Shown here piece after piece: positions 34,914 through 40,014 of a DNA stretch of 64,000 bases; the first letter of the stretch is position 1, and the number at the start of each line of letters is the position of its first letter. The position numbers were made by a program, and so were the translations under genes. Origin of the DNA: Nitrosopumilus ureiphilus (lineage in GTDB: Archaea > Thermoproteota > Nitrososphaeria > Nitrososphaerales > Nitrosopumilaceae); contig NZ_CP026995.1 in assembly GCF_013407185.1 (NCBI RefSeq), positions 1,695,913-1,759,912 of the forward strand. Direction: 5' to 3'. The notes under the pieces are model-generated. The model was not told where the DNA came from. It did not search any database and was given only the letters and a program-made list of their open reading frames with translations.

Positions 34914-37151
34914 TTACTCTAAAGGATAATCAAATCTGATGGAGTTTATCTCGTTTTGAATGTCATCCAAAGCATTGATCTTAATTGCACTTGGAGATGC
35001 AGTGTATAATGCATCACCAATGTAAAATGTGCGGTAACCTGTTTGGGAATGCACATACTTTGATCCAGAATGTTTAATTTTGCCTTCCAGATCAAACCCG
35101 CTTTGAGGATCAAGACCATACACATAGAATCCATTCCAAGTATTCTGTGAATTATTTTCAGATGGCGTATCTGTCTTGTCATAAATAGGAATAGAAAGGA
35201 TTCCTCTGTTTGTATCCAGGAAAAATGCCTTGTGATCATCAAGTGCTTCTGATCCAGCTGCTCGAGAATTGCCAATAACAACATCGTCTACCACTGATGG
35301 TTTTTTTACATCTGAGACATCAAAGAGTGCAATCTTTACGCCACTCTGCTGGATTCCAAAATTATCGGCATCACGTCCAATTCCAACAATATGATTTTCA
35401 TCAAATGGGTGCAGATAAGTTGAGAATCCCGGAATCTTTAGCTCGCCAAGTATTTTTGGAGTATCAGAAGACAAGTCAATTACAAAAAAAGGATCTATTC
35501 TCTCAAATGTGACAAGATACAGTTTTTCACCCATGAACCTTGAAGCAAAGACATTCTCATTTGGTGCAATGCCATCAAGATTTCCAATTGTGTCAAGTTG
35601 CTCATCATCCATCACATATACGGCATTGTACCGTGTGGTTAGCCCATTTCCATCGTAGTGGTCATATGTTGTAACAACCCTGAATGAGTCCTTGTATTTA
35701 TCCATGGAGAACTGGTTTAGCAACCATCCTGGAACTCCTCCCTGCGCTTGATGTTCTATGCTGCCTTCAGATATCCTAATTTTATGGATTGCCGTGTTTT
35801 TGAGGTCTTGCTGAACTTTTGAGTCATATATTGCTAGCTGCTCACCAATGTTAGAGAACAGTGTTTTTTTATCGACATATCCTATACTGTCATATGCATT
35901 TACCAAAATATCAGTGACAAGAGTATGTTTTTTAGAAGAATCAATCAAGGAATCATTTCTTATTTCATTGATTTTATCCTGAACAGATTTTGATAATAAT
36001 GGAACCAGAGTATTAAAGAATCTGTCTTTTTTGATTGCCTCATGGTGTGCAGAGCTTATGCTTTTCTTGTATGTTATGTATAATCCATCTTGTGATGTGT
36101 AAATTGTGTTTGTAGAACCCATTAGGAATGTTTTAGCATTTACAAAGTTTTCATCAAAAATGTTAATTGCTGTGATTGTGTTAAACTTGTAATCGGATTC
36201 ATAGTTGTCAAAATAAAACACATCCGGATCAAGTACCACTCCTGATGATCCATGAACTGTGATATACGGCATGACAGGATTGTTATGATGAGCCCTCATG
36301 GTAGAGATGAAGTACACATAGTCTCCAATCATTCTTGCATCGTGGAAATCCCCGTCAACTTCATAGTCCTTGAGAATCTTCGGAGAGATTGGATCAGATA
36401 CGTCAAGGATCATTGCATGTGTTACAATATCTCTTCTTGTTGGATTGTCCAACTCTTCAATTCTTTTCTCAGAGTTTGATGAAGTGTAAAATATCACAAG
36501 TCTGTAGCCGTTTAGAAACATGTTGTGCAGTTCTTGCTGTTTTATATCCAACGTTGTTTTTGAGATTATTTTGGCAGTTTCTGCAGGATATGCATCAATG
36601 ATTCTAAGTGTACGGTCTTGCAAAACATAGATGTACTTACCATCTGTCTTTATGTAATCTGGTTCATCGACTCCAGTAACCTGTACGTTTGTAGAAGAAA
36701 AAGCAGGATTGTCTCCACTATAGGCCTCTTCGTCTACACGAGTATCAAAAAAAGGTGTTCCTGATCCGGCAGATGTACTCCAATCACGAGCAAAAGAAGG
36801 AGAACTACTCTGCAACTGAGCCCGCATGCCAGAACTAGCAAACATCAGGGAAGAATCAGAATCCCATTCCGTACTTCTGAAATCATCATAATTTACGTAA
36901 GAATCCAAGGATCTTATCTTTAGAAGAAATTCTCTTACCTCGTCGTCAGATGAGAATTGTTTGAGTTGCTGCGTTCCCTCAAAAACCTCCAAGGGCATGG
37001 CAGTTTCATCAAAGACGGATATGTCTGGGAGCAATCTTTGTTGCTGTGCATCCAAGCTTTGCAGATCTGCATATATTACAGAATAAAGTCCAATGGCACC
37101 AATTATTGAAAGTGTTATCAGTGCAGAAAATAATACCAGTTTAACAGACAT
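34914..37151 (-). CDS. Secreted beta-propeller domain protein
   Basis: The 745-residue protein has an N-terminal signal or membrane segment (LVLFSALITLSIIGAIGLYS). The remainder is a beta-propeller of the type annotated as secreted proteins with beta-propeller domains: repeated units such as TDGKYIYVLQDRTLRIIDAY, DDHKAFFLDTNRGILSIPIY and HSQTGYRTFYIGDALYTASP. There is no catalytic motif. It is probably anchored at the cell surface. It is the last large gene of a membrane and surface cluster running down from 40 kb. Confidence 0.85.
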   Translation of the reverse strand: MSVKLVLFSALITLSIIGAIGLYSVIYADLQSLDAQQQRLLPDISVFDETAMPLEVFEGTQQLKQFSSDDEVREFLLKIRSLDSYVNYDDFRSTEWDSDSSLMFASSGMRAQLQSSSPSFARDWSTSAGSGTPFFDTRVDEEAYSGDNPAFSSTNVQVTGVDEPDYIKTDGKYIYVLQDRTLRIIDAYPAETAKIISKTTLDIKQQELHNMFLNGYRLVIFYTSSNSEKRIEELDNPTRRDIVTHAMILDVSDPISPKILKDYEVDGDFHDARMIGDYVYFISTMRAHHNNPVMPYITVHGSSGVVLDPDVFYFDNYESDYKFNTITAINIFDENFVNAKTFLMGSTNTIYTSQDGLYITYKKSISSAHHEAIKKDRFFNTLVPLLSKSVQDKINEIRNDSLIDSSKKHTLVTDILVNAYDSIGYVDKKTLFSNIGEQLAIYDSKVQQDLKNTAIHKIRISEGSIEHQAQGGVPGWLLNQFSMDKYKDSFRVVTTYDHYDGNGLTTRYNAVYVMDDEQLDTIGNLDGIAPNENVFASRFMGEKLYLVTFERIDPFFVIDLSSDTPKILGELKIPGFSTYLHPFDENHIVGIGRDADNFGIQQSGVKIALFDVSDVKKPSVVDDVVIGNSRAAGSEALDDHKAFFLDTNRGILSIPIYDKTDTPSENNSQNTWNGFYVYGLDPQSGFDLEGKIKHSGSKYVHSQTGYRTFYIGDALYTASPSAIKINALDDIQNEINSIRFDYPLE

Positions 37152-37560: not shown

Positions 37561-38040
37561 TTATCTTCCAAAATTCTCGTTCAATAGCATTGGAGTTCCA
37601 GAAATTATTGCTGCTAAAAGATAGATGTAAGGAATTCTACGCCATAATGGAATATTTTTTGTAAACATATAGTTAATTGGAATTGTAATCATTGCCATTA
37701 TCCAGAAAACCAATACATGAAATCCTTCTGGCGGCACAAATAAACGAGTTTGAAGAAAACCTATTGGGGCAGATATTAGTCCAAGTCCTGCAATAGCAAA
37801 CGGCAATGCAAATGCAACTCTCATCCCAGCCGCAAAAATACTTGTAAATACATCCGGATCTGGTGATGGGTTTTCTATTTCAAAACTTCTTGTTGTTCCA
37901 TTACCAAACAGCTCAACCATCTGTATTGGTTTGTCTTTATTATTTTCAAATGTAATACTATATTCAATTACAAGAAAAGAGAGGTTTGCCAAAAGATATC
38001 CAACTATAATTAAAACAAGGATTAGTTCTCTAGTTTTCAT
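37561..38040 (-). CDS. Four-helix membrane protein
   Basis: The 159-residue protein starts with a membrane segment (LILVLIIVGYLLANLSFLVI), has an extracytoplasmic loop and ends with three more helices (VAFALPFAIAGLGLISAPIG and two further). It resembles the next gene (38044) in length, start MKTR and helix layout, so the two are probably tandem paralogues. Function unknown. Confidence 0.7.
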   Translation of the reverse strand: MKTRELILVLIIVGYLLANLSFLVIEYSITFENNKDKPIQMVELFGNGTTRSFEIENPSPDPDVFTSIFAAGMRVAFALPFAIAGLGLISAPIGFLQTRLFVPPEGFHVLVFWIMAMITIPINYMFTKNIPLWRRIPYIYLLAAIISGTPMLLNENFGR

Positions 38041-38043
38041 TTT

Positions 38044-38562
38044 CTAAACTCCACACGGAGGTCCAGGCCTTATCGGATAATCAATAAAAGAAATACATTC
38101 AAAGTTGACATGTGACAGTGCCCACATTCCAGATATCTGCACTGCAATAAAGTAAACAAATACAAATCTTTTCCAAATTGGGAATTTTGAAGTATATTTC
38201 ATCACAAGAGGAATTGAAATGAAAGATAAAATCCACACTAGAATTCCAACATAATCATATGAAAAATCAGGAACGATAACAAGAAAATATCCCGTCAGAG
38301 TAACTGGAAGTGAGTATCTGAAAAATTCATAGACATGATTTTGAACTCCTTCAGATAATCTTTCATGATAATACATCATACTAGTTACTTCCTCTATGCT
38401 TCCATCTTCCAGTATTTTACTAGAAGTGATTTTCATGGGTTCTGCAGTATATGCACCCATTATCCCCACAGGAATCATTCCAAAAGCATTCAAAAGAAAC
38501 AAACCAACAACAAAATAGATAATCTTGCTTTCCCGTGATTGTTTCTGAAATCTAGTCTTCAT
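38044..38562 (-). CDS. Four-helix membrane protein, tandem paralogue
   Basis: This 172-residue protein begins MKTRFQKQSRESKIIYFVVG and carries four membrane helices with an outside loop between the first and second. It sits three bases upstream of the 37561 gene and 18 bases downstream of the SIMPL-cupredoxin gene, consistent with one operon. Both four-helix proteins may form a membrane partner for that protein; this is inference. Confidence 0.7.
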   Translation of the reverse strand: MKTRFQKQSRESKIIYFVVGLFLLNAFGMIPVGIMGAYTAEPMKITSSKILEDGSIEEVTSMMYYHERLSEGVQNHVYEFFRYSLPVTLTGYFLVIVPDFSYDYVGILVWILSFISIPLVMKYTSKFPIWKRFVFVYFIAVQISGMWALSHVNFECISFIDYPIRPGPPCGV

Positions 38563-38580: not shown

Positions 38581-40014
38581 TTAACGCCCGACTTCAAACT
38601 CTACATCAACTATTACTGAGATATTCCCATCTCGAATGTTATTCCATTCATCATATGATACAAGCACACCATCGTAACGCATCTGAGGGTTGCGTTGTTG
38701 ATCAAAATCTTGGTTTATCTTTATGGTTTTGATTCCCTTGACATCCAGATTCATTGGATTTGTAATCTCCATTGCGTTTTTTCTTGCATCATCAAGTGCC
38801 TCTTGTGTCAACTCTTGTCTGACGGTATCAATTGATGATTTTGAATATGACATATACATACGTTCAATGCCGCCATATTTTGATAAAATGTTATAGACTC
38901 CATCAATATTTTCCATACTAGTTTTCACAGTCCATCTTGAATATGTCTGATAACTGTCATAGGTTTTTTGTTGATAGTAAGATGGATTGATGTTTATTGT
39001 ACTTCGTGGAATTTCGCCTGACACACCATTTTCTTCTAATAGTGTGGACAATTCATCAAGTGTTTCAGCATATGCAGATAGTGTGTTTTCCATCGTGTCA
39101 GGTTTTGTTTCAAATCGTACATTGAGTGTAGCTTCTAGTGTATATCCCAAACTTACATCGGCATCTCCCAAAACAGTTACAGAGCCAGTCATCCATGGAT
39201 GAACCATGCAAAAGTAAGGATATTTTCCGACGGAGTTAAAATCAAAAGAAAATGTTGTCCCTTCCATAAACAGGCCGCTGTCAAAGATTCCATCAGGTCC
39301 ATCTTCAGACGTTCCGCTTGTTATTGTGTGCGCTGCCTGATCATCATTTGACCAGATTACTTCGGTCCCAGTATCTACGGTAATATCTGCAGGCAAAAAG
39401 CATTCATTGAATTGCTCACATTCCGGCACAGATGTGCCATATGGAACTGAAATTTTGACCGGAGTAGATTCAGTATTTTTTTCTACATCAGGATCCTCTA
39501 TTGGTACTTGAGATATTCTAATGTCTTCTATTCGCAGTCCAAGATTTGTTATCTCTTGTGTGATGTTCTGATAATTGTTCATATCGACTTTTACTGGAAA
39601 TGACATGTATGCAATGTACGAATCAGCGGCAGATCCAGAACCACCATAACGGAAATTGTTTCCATCAAAGTTTGTCTGGATATAAGATATTGTTACATCA
39701 TCATAATCTTTGAGTTCTTGCCGTAGTTCTTCAGATATGTCTTTGACATTTTTGTTGTATTGTTCTACGGCATCTTGAAGATCTGTCGGAGGATTGTTTA
39801 TTGCAAGTGTCATTACTACGACATCAGGAGGTAAAGCAGTAGAACTCTCACCACTAACTGTGATTGAGGCATATCCTGACTCTTGCTTCATTATTTCAGA
39901 GAATTCAAGTGGGTTGCTTAGGGAATAAGATGTAGAGAGGGTAAGAGAAAATACAAGTACAGATACAATTGCAATACTGGCAATCATTAATTTTGAGTTG
40001 GGTTTCACTTTCAC
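38581..40014 (-). CDS. SIMPL (DUF541) protein with an inserted cupredoxin domain
   Basis: The 477-residue secreted or anchored protein has a signal segment at 8-32, then a SIMPL N-terminal half (ASITVSGESSTALPPDVVVM, residues 49-180). A blue-copper domain follows (about 186-283), with likely ligands His229, Cys269, His272 and Met275 in AAHTITSG and YFCMVHPWM. The second SIMPL half runs from about 285 to the end (TLEATLNVRFET, then YDEWNNIRDGNISV). The copper domain thus sits between the two halves of the SIMPL fold. It may couple electron transfer or copper binding to an envelope role. It heads the 37.2-40 kb cluster. Confidence 0.88.
   Translation of the reverse strand: MKVKPNSKLMIASIAIVSVLVFSLTLSTSYSLSNPLEFSEIMKQESGYASITVSGESSTALPPDVVVMTLAINNPPTDLQDAVEQYNKNVKDISEELRQELKDYDDVTISYIQTNFDGNNFRYGGSGSAADSYIAYMSFPVKVDMNNYQNITQEITNLGLRIEDIRISQVPIEDPDVEKNTESTPVKISVPYGTSVPECEQFNECFLPADITVDTGTEVIWSNDDQAAHTITSGTSEDGPDGIFDSGLFMEGTTFSFDFNSVGKYPYFCMVHPWMTGSVTVLGDADVSLGYTLEATLNVRFETKPDTMENTLSAYAETLDELSTLLEENGVSGEIPRSTININPSYYQQKTYDSYQTYSRWTVKTSMENIDGVYNILSKYGGIERMYMSYSKSSIDTVRQELTQEALDDARKNAMEITNPMNLDVKGIKTIKINQDFDQQRNPQMRYDGVLVSYDEWNNIRDGNISVIVDVEFEVGR

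Follow-up and report, generated by a model that had tools for sequence, protein, structure and literature searches.

What is a blue-copper domain doing inside a SIMPL protein? The question is raised by a gene in a 64,000-nucleotide stretch of the Nitrosopumilus ureiphilus genome, the window of our analysis. The AmoA of this genome (E 5e-115) marks the organism as an ammonia oxidiser, and respiration in ammonia-oxidising archaea (AOA) is copper-based and plastocyanin-rich (PMC7490402; PMC7785015). A search with the Pfam SIMPL model found the gene to be the only SIMPL gene of its genome; the family itself is widespread, with members in 8 of 14 reference genomes in a control search. To our knowledge, SIMPL proteins have no agreed function. 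The gene and its parts are as follows:

38581..40014, minus strand: SIMPL-cupredoxin-SIMPL protein, 477 aa, GTG start (ORF, Pfam, homologues)
39922..39990, minus strand: hydrophobic segment near the N-terminus (aa 9-31), either a signal peptide or an anchor in the membrane, without a lipobox Cys (hydropathy)
39463..39882, minus strand: SIMPL unit 1 (aa ~45-184), without the last helix-strand part (profile matches; predicted bb-a-bb-a-b)
39163..39462, minus strand: cupredoxin domain (aa ~185-284) (PF00127; 9cck; fold match 5fc9)
39328..39330, minus strand: ligand His229 (conserved 8/8)
39208..39210, minus strand: ligand Cys269 (conserved 8/8)
39199..39201, minus strand: ligand His272 (conserved 8/8)
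39190..39192, minus strand: axial ligand Met275 of the C-x2-H-x2-M loop (conserved 8/8)
38584..39153, minus strand: SIMPL unit 2 (aa ~288-477), complete (Pfam and profile matches, predicted model)

Both families score above their Pfam cut-offs (PF04402, SIMPL, 83.3 versus 25.2 bits; PF00127, Copper-bind, 27.7 versus 21.2 bits). Hydropathy analysis revealed a single hydrophobic segment, which peaks at aa 9-27 (mean 2.41). This lone N-terminal segment predicts probable export of the protein, or its anchoring in the envelope. A model of the whole protein was not usable as a guide to the domain arrangement (pTM 0.36), and a Foldseek search with it placed only cupredoxin-fold entries at the top of the list.

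The first-pass annotation had placed the cupredoxin between the two halves of one SIMPL domain. However, a profile of our own, based on 27 archaeal SIMPL proteins with a single domain, matches the protein twice, at residues 6-100 (profile 13-108) and at residues 296-445 (profile 75-237), and the Pfam SIMPL model likewise yields two matches with overlapping columns (1-119 and 15-172). Because the flanks match overlapping and not complementary parts of the profile, they represent two SIMPL units instead of two halves. Unit 2 alone aligns with 4HVZ, a chain of Brucella BP26, and spans positions 5-169 of the 188 in the profile (E 2.4e-6). In its AlphaFold model (pLDDT 78), for which 4HVZ is also the best fold match (E 3e-4, TM 0.57/0.51), followed by Campylobacter SIMPL, the predicted SIMPL fold is complete, the alignment spanning 215 columns for a 214-residue chain. 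Unit 1 is incomplete, as its last helix and strand are missing in the window protein and its relatives alike. A single split SIMPL domain would account for a cupredoxin flanked by two SIMPL matches, but given the shared columns, the completeness of unit 2 by itself relative to BP26, and the presence of both units in relatives without a cupredoxin, this anatomy is scarcely tenable. Judged by the profiles, the cupredoxin occupies the linker between two SIMPL units. The window protein thus resembles SIMPL/DUF541 proteins (PF04402: BP26/Omp28, 4HVZ; YggE; Campylobacter SIMPL, 7c50) in the profile and fold of unit 2 and in its predicted export, but differs from them in having two units, not one, with a copper domain in between. 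The closer comparison is with cupredoxin-free tandem SIMPL proteins of AOA (L155, L156, L158, L136, L185:8031-9155), which have the same two-unit plan at 21-36% identity per unit, but a short linker where the window protein carries its copper domain.

The four ligands named in the first-pass annotation, H229, C269, H272 and M275, are all present under the numbering given there. Among solved structures, the nearest by sequence is 9cck (E 7e-17), the C-terminal cupredoxin domain of an N. maritimus multicopper oxidase, followed by 5fc9 and amicyanins; the modelled fold matches 5fc9 with a TM of 0.80 by target. In sequence and predicted fold the domain is therefore akin to 9cck, to the N. maritimus purple cupredoxin Nmar1307 (5fc9) and to the plastocyanin-like cupredoxins of AOA (PF00127), from which it is set apart by its location inside a SIMPL protein. 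Its identity to free-standing AOA cupredoxins reaches 68%. The axial ligand of the window protein, Met275, aligns with no Met in 5fc9, whose sequence reads HPWR at that point. The C-x2-H-x2-M loop occurs in 139 of 143 AOA cupredoxins, which were sampled by their similarity to the window domain. This loop and the size of the cupredoxin (~100 residues) are shared with amicyanin (1id2, 1aac), but amicyanin is a free, soluble protein that works with methylamine dehydrogenase, an enzyme that is not implied for the window protein. The score against the amicyanin equivalog TIGR02657 (30.1 bits) falls below the cut-off of 110.2; by sequence, the domain has an amicyanin-like loop but is not an amicyanin. 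We classify it as a plastocyanin/amicyanin-type cupredoxin with a complete predicted set of type 1 copper ligands. A further pair of cysteines (C199/C205), additional to the ligands and kept in 6 of 8 fused proteins, may form a disulfide.

To find the same architecture across archaea, as the first-pass annotation had proposed, relatives were sought in 95 genomes of the genus, 250 of the family, 70 of the Nitrososphaeraceae and 398 of the phylum, and in a 300-genome sample of the class; one further contig (L001) was added through a contig search. Together these yielded 13 tandem-SIMPL proteins, all matched by the Pfam SIMPL model (E <= 0.01) and eight of them also by Copper-bind. The cupredoxin is carried by the window protein, two proteins of G014, one each of G287, G095 and G211, one of the two copies in G240, and L001, a Nitrosotalea MAG in which the gene is frameshifted. 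It is lacking in G194, G209, G213, G093 and the other G240 copy. The eight fused proteins thus stem from Nitrosopumilaceae, a Nitrosotalea MAG and one Nitrososphaeraceae genome. Within the family the fusion is found in 6 of 250 genomes, counting L001 and G379 as one organism, which they probably are in view of a shared frame break and match pattern. In G017 a decayed SIMPL-cupredoxin gene (L190:4936-5815, minus strand) has a broken frame and has lost everything after unit 1. Most AOA lack the gene and G017 keeps only this remnant; the gene therefore does not belong to core ammonia oxidation. Structure and literature searches (DUF541 plus cupredoxin) returned no solved structure or publication of a SIMPL protein with a cupredoxin. 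What is new here is the combination of two known families.

All four ligands are invariant in the eight fused proteins, the conservation that the first-pass annotation had named as support. Conservation in these proteins is by far the highest in the cupredoxin, where 26 of 100 columns are invariant; for the SIMPL units the figure is 17 of 319 (Fisher p 5e-8). Compared with the window protein, distant members have cupredoxins of 40-56% identity but SIMPL units of only 25-40%. Because the same plan with all four ligands is kept in a handful of distant relatives, the alignments indicate that the architecture is real, not a product of chance, and probably functional. In a tree of the SIMPL units computed without the insert, a single branch separates all eight fused proteins from the rest, so that the insert state changes only once; the support of 89/88 is not decisive. 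The simplest reading is a single gain long ago, or a single loss, and a single origin is probable. A tree of the cupredoxins alone was too poorly resolved to decide on the origin. That each lineage recently copied in its own free cupredoxin is unsupported, as one change suffices on the insert-free tree. Mobile origin was also considered and rejected: plasmid matches span the cupredoxin only, and no relative was found among viral contigs.

It could still be that the linker acquired a free cupredoxin gene that is tolerated there, the domains having no joint function. The rare and patchy occurrence of the fusion, the decay of the G017 copy and the frequent location of fused genes in variable stretches of secreted-protein genes would fit such a passive fusion. 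But the ligands have stayed intact in 8 of 8 proteins despite large divergence of the SIMPL units, and the insert-free tree fits one old insertion, which makes this explanation improbable.

Downstream of the gene, the window contains:

38044..38562, minus strand: 172 aa membrane protein, 18 bp downstream of the SIMPL-cupredoxin gene, paralogue of the 159 aa protein, not a conserved partner
37561..38040, minus strand: 159 aa membrane protein, paralogue of the 172 aa protein (ORF)
34914..37151, minus strand: Beta_propel (PF09826) protein, 745 aa (Pfam)

The gene had been thought to head an operon with the two four-helix membrane proteins. In the window this is plausible, with gaps of 18 and 3 bp, but the two genes are missing downstream in relatives: neither was found beside any fused relative, and the genomes that have close homologues of the 172 aa protein, G105, G118 and G010, are not listed with a tandem-SIMPL gene. 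The operon link is thus only local, and a conserved operon can be dismissed, as fused relatives have other neighbours. The 745 aa beta-propeller protein has a paralogue at another place in this genome, and the gene of that paralogue is followed by one for a four-helix protein. The neighbourhoods of SIMPL-cupredoxin genes contain no conserved redox partner, and these genes are frequently embedded in variable regions made up of genes for secreted proteins. A membrane-anchored winged-helix regulator lies within ~1.5 kb in 26 of 86 SIMPL loci, duplicates included, mostly in divergent orientation; it is found beside single-domain SIMPL genes in L137, L161, L172, L199 and other loci. In G095 the SIMPL-cupredoxin gene is divergent from such a regulator, which flanks ordinary SIMPL genes, so that the fusion can fill the regulatory slot of an ordinary SIMPL.

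The domain plan, the export signal, the complete and invariant ligands, the likeness to AOA electron carriers, the probable single origin of the insert and the rarity of the gene are computational results, and from them we proceed to a possible role. With moderate confidence, we propose an anchored tandem-SIMPL scaffold bearing a type 1 copper domain that would act in pseudoperiplasmic electron transfer or redox protection. The protein would be exported, and probably held in the envelope by its N-terminus, with two SIMPL units forming the scaffold, presumably an oligomeric one by analogy with BP26, and an intact type 1 domain with an amicyanin loop placed in the linker between them. The cupredoxin would load Cu in the pseudoperiplasm, cycle between Cu(I) and Cu(II), and either exchange electrons with the plastocyanin pool of the organism or scavenge redox stress. 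Of the two functions suggested in the first-pass annotation, the envelope electron-transfer scaffold thus stands as the best reading of the sequence, and the copper carrier appears less likely.

In the latter case, the SIMPL scaffold would present copper sites that store or pass on Cu without electron transfer. The high copper demand of AOA and their responses to copper limitation (PMC7785015) would suit a buffer or carrier, as would the export of AOA copper proteins and the several sites that an oligomer would display. Against it, no CopC/CopD-like gene was seen among the adjacent ORFs, which were inspected without a profile search, and the combination of His2-Cys-Met with a short amicyanin loop is the one used for electron transfer, as in the AOA plastocyanin pool. 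In CopC, PCuAC and similar Cu carriers, the metal is held by other sets of ligands. Given a ligand set of the redox kind, we favour electron transfer or redox protection and consider copper carriage unlikely. We give similarly low weight to an oxidative-stress protein whose SIMPL part would have a YggE-like action, complemented by a cupredoxin copper that is redox-active or reacts with NO or superoxide. Unit 2 does match NCBIfam PRK11087 ('oxidative stress defense protein'), albeit below cut-off (31 vs 249 bits), and archaeal SIMPL proteins have been found in oxidative-stress and biofilm data (PMC12482152; PMC5118699). But YggE itself has no established mechanism, and the axial Met points to a closed type 1 site, not an open reactive copper.

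A rather unlikely extension of the scaffold reading is that the tandem units form a surface ring or barrel like that of BP26, a 16-mer barrel (PMC6884894), showing many type 1 copper sites. In some ammonia oxidisers, such an assembly would then serve copper-based respiration as a particle with multiple sites for electron transfer or redox buffering. More generally, a natural SIMPL fusion with a redox copper domain provides a measurable clue, envelope redox chemistry, as well as a spectroscopic handle, and the AOA copper inventory gains an unrecognised member.

Several observations were made alongside. In G240 the cupredoxin-free tandem SIMPL gene (L185:8031-9155, minus strand) is divergent from another gene (L185:9085-10542, plus strand), whose product is an exported cupredoxin protein ending in a PEFASL-type C-terminus, the ORFs overlapping at their 5' ends as called; the two are possibly an unfused SIMPL/cupredoxin pair. 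An exported protein of 257 aa (L240:2213-2986, plus strand) has a C-terminal cupredoxin-like domain in which the Cys ligand is lost (FSYHGMPGPWATG), and adjoins a pair of regulator and beta-propeller genes. Arrays of seemingly unrelated genes for exported or membrane proteins share MKTR, MKTK or MKIR starts (10 of 24 ORFs in L182) and look like variable gene islands (L182:2668-17999; window 37561-38562; L252).

Short peptides also recur between regulators and exported products. Within the predicted extracytoplasmic stretch of a 206 aa membrane-anchored winged-helix regulator, DSAFKYPRPTLPPYMTPIEPQSG is nearly identical to ETAFKYPRPTLPPYMTPIEPQVG in the AmoA of the same genome, and a beta-propeller protein carries SSFKYPRPTLPPFMEPV (L256:1054-1674, plus; L255:1444-2094, minus; L240:4200-6479, plus); this is possibly peptide mimicry. 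A second regulator and its divergent beta-propeller partner have NTGSVSLDRTVYPxxFD in common, which recurs as NTGSISLDRTVYPVPWG in an ORF of 1745 aa, probably the S-layer protein (L240:3215-4069, minus; L240:4200-6479, plus; L182:6964-7812, minus; L283:1561-6795, minus). With a third regulator (L237:1447-2232, plus strand), a peptide is again common to the regulator and exported products: the regulator has PGAGSGTPYFD, its divergent 103 aa neighbour (L237:1070-1378, minus strand) HTGSGTPMFA, and the beta-propeller protein of the window (34914-37151, minus strand) the kindred SAGSGTPFFD.
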